Shown in pieces: positions 40,353 to 41,951 of a stretch of 64,000 nucleotides of DNA; the stretch's first letter is position 1; the number at the start of each line of letters is the position of its first letter. Location: assembly GCA_937872175.1 (NCBI GenBank), contig CALMPI010000016.1:62001-126000 (forward strand), in the 5' to 3' direction. The stretch comes from an uncultured Flavobacteriales bacterium (GTDB lineage: Bacteria > Bacteroidota > Bacteroidia > Flavobacteriales_F > PHOS-HE28). A model generated the notes under the pieces. The model was not told where the DNA came from. It saw only the letters and a program-made list of their open reading frames with translations, and did not search any database. A program made the translations under genes and the position numbers.

Positions 40353-40991
40353 TCAAGGGATGTTCAGGGTTTTGTGGATCTGGAGGGAGATGCGCCATCG
40401 CGGATCGGCCATGACCTTCTCCACGATCAACGGCATCACGCGATCGCGCTTCTCCCATTCGGGCTGAAGGAAGAGCACGCAACCGGGGTCCACCTGGGCG
40501 GCGTGCGCATCGGCCCAGCCGAGGTCGTGCCGGTTGACGACGATGACCTTCAGTTCATGGGCAAGGCGGTGGAAGCCGTGCACGGGTGCTTTGAACTTCT
40601 TGGGGCTGAAGCACACATGGTGCCAATCGCCTGTCAAGGGGTGGGTACCGGAGGTTTCAAGATGGGTGCGAAGGCCGCGGGCCCGCAGGGCATCGGTCAG
40701 TGGTGTCAGGTCGTGCATCAGGGGCTCCCCGCCGGTGACCACCACGATGCGGGCGGGATGCGAGTCCGCCTCGGCCGCCAGGTCCGCCGCCGAGCGCTGC
40801 GGGTGGACGGACGCGTCCCAGCTTTCCTTCACATCGCACCACGCACAGCCCACATCGCAGCCTCCAAGCCGGATGAAGCAGGCCGCCTGACCACTGTAGA
40901 GCCCCTCGCCCTGCACGGTGTGGAAGATCTCCATCACCGGGTAGGTCGTGGCCGCGGTGGGTTCCGCACGGGTGGTGATGGAGGCGTTCAC
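40353..40991 (-). CDS. queE: 7-carboxy-7-deazaguanine synthase QueE
   Basis: Radical SAM enzyme of the queuosine/7-deazaguanine pathway, converting 6-carboxytetrahydropterin to 7-carboxy-7-deazaguanine. The 212-residue frame from GTG 40991 has MEIFHTVQGEG, the QueE-type cluster motif C45-x3-C49-x2-C52 (CDVGCAWC), VVTGGEPLMH, LETSGTHPL and the C-terminal LQIHKTLNIP. GTG 41045 is an in-frame alternative but would lie inside the terminator of the upstream RNA. The gene starts 9 nt after that terminator's U-tract, so expression may depend on readthrough. Confidence 0.92.
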   Translation of the reverse strand: MNASITTRAEPTAATTYPVMEIFHTVQGEGLYSGQAACFIRLGGCDVGCAWCDVKESWDASVHPQRSAADLAAEADSHPARIVVVTGGEPLMHDLTPLTDALRARGLRTHLETSGTHPLTGDWHHVCFSPKKFKAPVHGFHRLAHELKVIVVNRHDLGWADAHAAQVDPGCVLFLQPEWEKRDRVMPLIVEKVMADPRWRISLQIHKTLNIP

Positions 40992-40997
40992 GGCAGG

Positions 40998-41235
40998 ACA
41001 AAAAAAGCCCACACAGGACCGAAGTTCAAAGAACCCATGGATCACATGAGCGGGTCGGACAGAAAGGGGTCAGTAATCCGCGTTGTGCCCGGAGGCATCA
41101 TCGCCCGAAGGAGATGCGCGGCCCGCCTTTGCCCTTTGGATCTTCCGTCCCTGAGCAAATAATGTTGGTTCTGAGACTATAGGCCTGTGTGGGCTGGTCG
41201 TTGATCAGCGCACGGCTGAGAAAGAACGCGTCTGC
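40998..41235 (-). ncRNA. Candidate structured RNA, rod-shaped and 6S-like, with terminator
   Basis: In the 420-bp gap between queE and the gene at 41412, four nested helices are seen on the minus strand (plus-strand coordinates): 41184-41195 with 41006-41017 (12 bp, AGCCCACACAGG/CCTGTGTGGGCT), 41167-41172 with 41030-41035, 41143-41150 with 41057-41064 (one G-U pair), and 41117-41121 with 41078-41082. The closing helix ends in a run of seven T, a terminator. The resulting core is about 196 nt with near-symmetric internal loops, the architecture of 6S RNA. A TACATTCG promoter box is at 41240-41247 (complement). A queE leader or attenuator is the alternative. The rest of the gap (41250-41350) holds nothing I recognise. 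Confidence 0.55.
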
Positions 41236-41353
41236 GCTACGAATGTATAGCGCGCGAACAGCCTTCTGCAACCACCGGTTGAAAAATCATCCCCTCCCCT
41301 GCCCGTCGCCATCGGACCGGCCATCGCCCTGGACCGGAGCATCCGCCTCGAGG

Positions 41354-41408
41354 GCACATGGTCACATGAGCACATGAGCACATGCGCACATGGTCGCATG
41401 GGCACATG
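41354..41408 (-). repeat. Tandem octamer repeat directly after a stop codon
   Basis: Seven octamers of the type GCACATGN/TCACATGA on the plus strand, that is NCATGTGC when read in the direction of the gene whose stop is at 41412. Same unit and same relative orientation as at 37434-37461. Confidence 0.78.
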
Positions 41409-41411
41409 GTC

Positions 41412-41951
41412 CTACTCCCCTTTCTGCCCCACGAAGTGATCCTCCTTGTCCTCGAAGAGAATGTTGAAGGTGGTGAGGCTGCCGTAGCAGCGGGTGATGT
41501 ACTGCTGCAGCTCCACCTTGTCGGCTTCGCTGAGCGCCGCGTGGGCGTTGACCTTCTGCTCCAGCACGCGGAAGCGGTCGCGGATCATGACGATCTTGTG
41601 GAAGAGGTCGTCGATGGGCACTTCCTTGCTCTTCAGGGTGGGGTCCTTCGGCCGCAGTTCCATCACCCCTCCTTCGTACCGTCGCGCCATGCTCACCGGG
41701 CGCTGCGGCATCTGCAGTTCCTCCAGCACCTCGCGCAGGGCGTCCTTCACGTGCTCCAGATCGAGCGGCTCCTGGCCGATCTCCACGCCCGGGGCGATGG
41801 TGACCAGCCCTTCGAAGCTGCGGCTGATGGGCTGTTCTCCATGCTCGCGGAAGAAGACGTGCACGGTGCGCGGATCGATGTCGTAGACGACGCCCACGCC
41901 CAAGGTCGGGTGCTTCACGCGGGCCCCGATGCTGATGTCATGCAGTTCCAT
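41412..41951 (-). CDS. Conserved hypothetical protein paired with a GreA-like factor
   Basis: A 179-residue soluble protein of a Bacteroidota-restricted family without assigned function. The first 50 residues (ISIGARVKHPTLGVGVVYDI, VHVFFREHGEQPISRSFEGL) look like a small SH3/Tudor-like barrel comparable in pattern to the RNA-polymerase-binding domain of CarD, followed by helical sequence (DDLFHKIVMIRDRFRVLEQK). Only 2 nt separate it from the GreA-like gene upstream, so a shared role with RNA polymerase is a reasonable inference, not a demonstrated one. Confidence 0.75.
   Translation of the reverse strand: MELHDISIGARVKHPTLGVGVVYDIDPRTVHVFFREHGEQPISRSFEGLVTIAPGVEIGQEPLDLEHVKDALREVLEELQMPQRPVSMARRYEGGVMELRPKDPTLKSKEVPIDDLFHKIVMIRDRFRVLEQKVNAHAALSEADKVELQQYITRCYGSLTTFNILFEDKEDHFVGQKGE

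Follow-up and report, generated by a model that had tools for sequence, protein, structure and literature searches.

Layout and fold of the RNA upstream of queE

The window, the whole 64,000-nt stretch of DNA that was analysed, carries a previously unannotated RNA unit on its minus strand at positions 41247-41000. From 5' to 3' the unit comprises a promoter, a boxA-like element, a rod of about 190 nt closed by a 12-bp stem, and a run of seven U residues. Downstream on the same strand lies queE, whose reading frame is listed at 40353-41045 and has a Radical_SAM match; its true start is downstream of the U-tract. An earlier note on this DNA placed the end of the U-tract 9 nt before the queE start, which holds only if a GTG near 40991 is the start codon. 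QueE homology begins at MEIFHTVQ, about 60 nt past the U-tract. On the other side of the unit, upstream of the promoter, 41352-41409 holds some seven 8-bp units (GGGCACAT) in an array; in another member of the genus (L023), a different repeat of short units separates the RNA from queE. The next gene upstream, at 41412-41951 on the minus strand, gives a weak RapA Tudor-like match below the Pfam cut-off. RapA acts in the recycling of RNA polymerase, which makes this neighbourhood of possible interest.

The rod core spans 41006-41195 on the minus strand. It is closed by the perfect 12-bp stem described in the earlier note, in which 41195-41184 pairs with 41017-41006. Both arms are evident in the sequence and in the covariation alignment, where 99.4% of this helix's cells are paired. 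The 3' arm doubles as the stem of an intrinsic terminator and runs into the seven T residues at 41006-41000; a T-rich tract follows the stem in nearly all relatives. Going up from the closing stem, two short helices lead to a large central bulge, beyond which two long helices precede a branched tip. The helix below the bulge pairs AGAACC (41172-41167) with GGUUCU (41035-41030), and the helix above it pairs 41151-41144 with 41059-41052. The bulge itself has about 15 nt on its 5' strand (41166-41152) and 16 nt on its 3' strand, and the apical part of the rod occupies 41131-41070. A small leader hairpin, TCAGC-CGTGC-GCTGA, is predicted just 5' of the rod at 41219-41205, and its sequence is maintained across the main group of relatives. 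The RNA thus has the architecture of 6S-type RNAs, namely a single rod of about 150-250 nt with a closing stem, a large central bulge and a long upper stem.

A 207-nt minus-strand segment folds at -79.9 kcal/mol, compared with -64.9 +/- 4.7 kcal/mol for 200 shuffled sequences (z = -3.2), one of which was as good as the native sequence. We assign the RNA to the minus strand because the promoter, the boxA-like element and the U-tract fix its orientation. Antisense matches of about 30 bits to the covariance model described below were set aside as the mirror image of a rod.

Conservation and compensatory change

The source genome is 4.3 Mb in size and 99.99% complete. Relatives that share the RNA have been deposited as metagenome bins labelled Flavobacteriales or Bacteroidetes. 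BLAST finds the RNA's DNA in 28 of 58 relatives, all of one genus. We built a covariance model, R1, from the genus sequences without any input from Rfam; it scores the rod core at 214.8 bits. At E < 1e-20, R1 matches 36 of the 45 genomes of the order, and a match is present in 28 of the 30 that are of good quality. Among 148 genomes sampled across the phylum it matches only the source genome and one other (G103), so it seldom gives false matches and is poorly sensitive to AT-rich homologues.

The nested minus-strand helices reported in the earlier note show strong compensatory change in relatives. In an alignment of 26 sequences, 97% of pair cells hold standard pairs. Double changes occur at 19 pairs, against 10.9 in shuffled and 4-7 in slid controls, and in 108 cells, against 28.5 and 7-20, respectively. 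The helix below the central bulge (helix 3) shows A-U to G-C compensatory changes, and the helix above it (helix 4) has double changes at all eight pairs. With five distant homologues included, double changes appear at 42 of 47 pairs, in an alignment that was fitted to the structure and is so biased towards it. The conserved RNA structure is real. Missing covariation, missing conservation or a match to a different RNA family, any of which the earlier note would have taken as grounds for giving up its claim, were not observed.

Promoter and boxA-like leader

The -7 element TACATTCG (41247-41240) precedes the 5' arm of the closing stem by 45 nt, as first described, and is of the TAnnTTTG type recognized by the primary sigma factor of Bacteroidota; we used the Bacteroides -7 consensus for comparison (PMC7366714). 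TAnnTT[CTG]G is present in all 26 relatives that include this stretch. From the position of the element, transcription would start within 41236-41231, at about 41233. Across the window, TAnnTTYG occurs at 20 places against 7.2 expected, one of them just before a tRNA at 2882, and the GC-rich source genome seems to use TTCG besides TTTG in its -7 elements.

Between promoter and rod, the 5' leader carries a boxA-like element, CGTTCTTT, at 41228-41221. The element is found in 25 of 26 relatives; GTTCTTT or a one-base variant is present at this place in all relatives but one, and in nearly all of them the -7 element lies 18-20 nt before it. The same element occurs in 16S rRNA leaders. In four members of the genus (L117-L120), CGTTCTTT stands 27 nt after the upstream promoter of the 16S leader, and a further GTTCTTT is found there about 106 nt ahead of 16S. 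A search of the whole source genome for TAnnTTnG followed after 6-22 nt by CGTTCTTT returned two places, this RNA and the 16S rRNA leader, and the reversed pattern used as a control returned none. Six other genomes gave one to four matches each, which included the RNA, the rRNA or both, with G066 as the exception. The single match in G066 (L125) lies beside three clustered tRNA genes. One match in G024 (L133) is near a SAM riboswitch.

The motif extends to distant homologues of the RNA, five of six of which have GTTCTTT 26-45 nt ahead of the rod. The chance probability is about 1e-9, for homologues that were not picked for GTTCTTT and a motif that had been noticed before testing. Both sequence and promoter-proximal position agree with a boxA, and the element fits the GYTCTTT with which the E. 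coli consensus GYTCTTTAANA begins (PMC5725501), in a study whose authors by their own account left non-coding RNAs out of consideration. In the literature that we searched, no paper combined boxA, antitermination and 6S RNA.

These sequence patterns suggest that 6S RNA and rRNA may share boxA-type antitermination. A broader proposal is tentative, and we give it somewhat less than an even chance: that some Bacteroidota have 6S genes with an rRNA-like boxA close to the promoter, and that the Nus-modified polymerase responsible for rRNA also makes their RNA. If true, the supply of 6S RNA would be tied to rRNA synthesis and to Nus-factor levels. The boxA-like leader is what would make the locus of specialist interest; it offers a specific and testable link between 6S RNA and rRNA antitermination.

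Relationship to 6S RNA families

The searches with the Rfam 6S, 6S-Flavo and preQ1 models that the earlier note had proposed gave no match at cut-off, and a scan of the locus found no Rfam family at its gathering threshold. RF00013 (6S; gathering threshold 46.4 bits) has no match at E 10 anywhere in the source genome, and RF01685 (6S-Flavo; 85 bits) has none in the genus. The sole biologically sensible match at the locus is a weak one to RF01693 (Bacteroidales-1), at 15.1 bits here and 25.5 bits at best in the genus against a threshold of 60. The shared motif AAnGGCGGGCC...GGAUUAC falls on the apical part of the RNA (GGCGGGCC ... GGAUUAC). This locus is the best genome-wide RF01693 match in the source genome and in ten other members of the genus (G017, G012, G022, G011, G007, G015, G016, G023, G026 and G001, plus a fragment in G013), and the match is full length in two of those ten. 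Other Rfam matches (mir-941, mir-297, IRES_L-myc, ArcZ and others) are far below threshold and were discarded as chance; the first three sit on the CACATG repeat region, and that to ArcZ on the end of the rod and the start of queE.

In the reverse comparison, R1 matches G057 where RF01693 does, at 54.5 bits (E = 2e-11 genome-wide), also matches G056 and G103, and recovers the places of weak RF01685 matches in G042, G044 and G045. Homology to a recognized 6S family is thus found through reciprocal sub-threshold matches among RF01693, R1 and RF01685, and the RNA is the sole 6S candidate in the source genome, where RF01693 and R1 match only this locus. RF01685 and RF01693, which Rfam separates, behave here as one superfamily in that a single genus-level model reaches both (L060, L061 and L062, in G045, G042 and G044, respectively). 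A Bacteroides 6S RNA with two classes of pRNA has been observed by dRNA-seq (PMC7366714). That this RNA is RF01693 is suggested by the Rfam title of the family, "6S-Bacteroidales RNA suggested", together with a step of our own.

Genomic position points the same way. The zapA-rny interval holds a homologue in G042, G045, G054, G117 and G159, and in G056 one directly follows zapA. Adjacency to zapA is classical for 6S RNA in Proteobacteria, and E. coli ssrS adjoins zapA. In the source genome, zapA and rny are neighbours separated by about 60 nt that contain no RNA, and a 6S gene in that interval was therefore rejected. Taken with the model matches, this empty interval and the silence of RF00013 indicate that the RNA is homologous to 6S RNAs of Bacteroidota and sits at a different place; by the Rfam cut-offs it belongs to none of RF01693, RF01685 and RF00013. 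The 6S-like character proposed in the earlier note is in this way supported as homology, through sequence models and the zapA neighbourhood of distant homologues. We conclude that the RNA upstream of queE is very probably a divergent, relocated 6S RNA of a Bacteroidota (Flavobacteriales-type) lineage. 6S RNA is a global regulator, yet in this lineage it is invisible to database models; a genus-level covariance model recovers it, links Bacteroidales-1 with 6S-Flavo, two families that are filed separately, and shows the gene placed away from the zapA-rny site of several relatives.

In this reading, the RNA would be transcribed from its own TAnnTTCG promoter (start at about 41233) and end at the closing stem and U7 (41000), possibly under rRNA-type antitermination conferred by the boxA-like leader. 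Its gene would have moved from the zapA-rny locus, kept by several relatives, to the site upstream of queE. By analogy with known 6S RNAs, the centrally bulged rod would act as a mimic of an open promoter and sequester the sigma-A RNA polymerase holoenzyme, with the 5' strand of the bulge (CAACAUUAUUU) as the putative template for a short pRNA. The CAACA of this strand falls in invariant columns, is conserved across orders and is kept in nearly all homologues. Synthesis of the pRNA would free the 3' strand, which could then form a 7-bp hairpin and release the polymerase. Constrained folding with the 5' bulge strand unavailable gives such a candidate, GCUCAUG-UGAUC-CAUGGGU, at 41051-41033. In G021 its pairing is kept through a C-G to U-A change (CUAUG/CAUAG) outside the rod helix. 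Hairpins of other sequence are possible at the same place in G103, G057, G056 and G042, and the hairpin is unsupported in G044, G045 and the RF01693-type homologues. A release hairpin is described for E. coli 6S RNA; the candidate resembles it and may play the same part. The 3' bulge strand (CAUGU...) contains no convincing TAnnTTTG match as a -7 mimic.

Structure alone cannot separate holoenzyme binding from core binding, and the RNA might instead bind polymerase in another way, as an Ms1-like core-binding RNA or as a former 6S RNA with a new role; Ms1 resembles 6S RNA in shape (PMC9130861). We consider this unlikely in view of the homology to Bacteroidales-1 and 6S-Flavo, the 6S RNA and pRNAs reported from Bacteroides (PMC7366714) and the zapA neighbourhood of the homologues. 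A cis-acting leader, raised as the alternative in the earlier note, would have the rod and terminator attenuate queE transcription when a ligand or protein of the queuosine pathway is sensed. The gene order is indeed the same genus-wide, with queE downstream on the same strand in every member whose flank was examined and the terminator preceding the gene. However, homologues in other orders adjoin zapA/rny or other genes, and there is no adjacent queE in G042, G044, G045, G056, G057 or G103. Even within the genus, anything from about 40 to about 290 nt lies between the RNA and queE. The terminator stem is, moreover, the closing helix of the whole rod, with no mutually exclusive antiterminator seen, and the Rfam preQ1 riboswitch model has no match at the locus; a preQ1 or other riboswitch was rejected for want of an Rfam match. 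Together these observations make a queE leader very unlikely. A chance inverted repeat or terminator in the intergenic region can be dismissed: stems are common in GC-rich genomes and the fold by itself is only about 3 sd more stable than shuffles, but conservation and covariation across the whole genus and beyond refute it.

Set beside known systems, the probable 6S RNA described here is like RF00013 of the SsrS and BsrA types in its size, rod shape, central bulge, potential for a 3'-bulge hairpin and the zapA neighbourhood of its homologues. It differs in lacking a match to that family in the genome, in having a terminator within the closing stem, and in some 40 nt of additional 5' leader that bear a boxA-like box, unlike classical 6S RNA. 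This box resembles the rRNA-leader boxA of NusB/NusE antitermination, in that a TAnnTTnG promoter precedes CGTTCTTT, the arrangement also seen in the genus's 16S leader, but here the candidate element, recognized by sequence, belongs to a short non-coding RNA and not to an rRNA operon. With RF01685 the RNA has in common the CAAC bulge motif and GGAUUAC, and R1 and RF01685 find the same places in G042, G044 and G045, whereas RF01685 has a 108-nt model that spans only the inner part and matches nowhere in the genus. Relative to RF01693, the RNA is far under threshold, has GC-rich helices and lies at another genomic place, and the helix below the central bulge reads AGAACC/GGUUCU here and AAACUC/GGAGUUU there. 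The two nevertheless share a closing terminator stem (AGCC.../...GGCUUUUU), the apical AAnGGCGGGCC...GGAUUAC, polarity and size.
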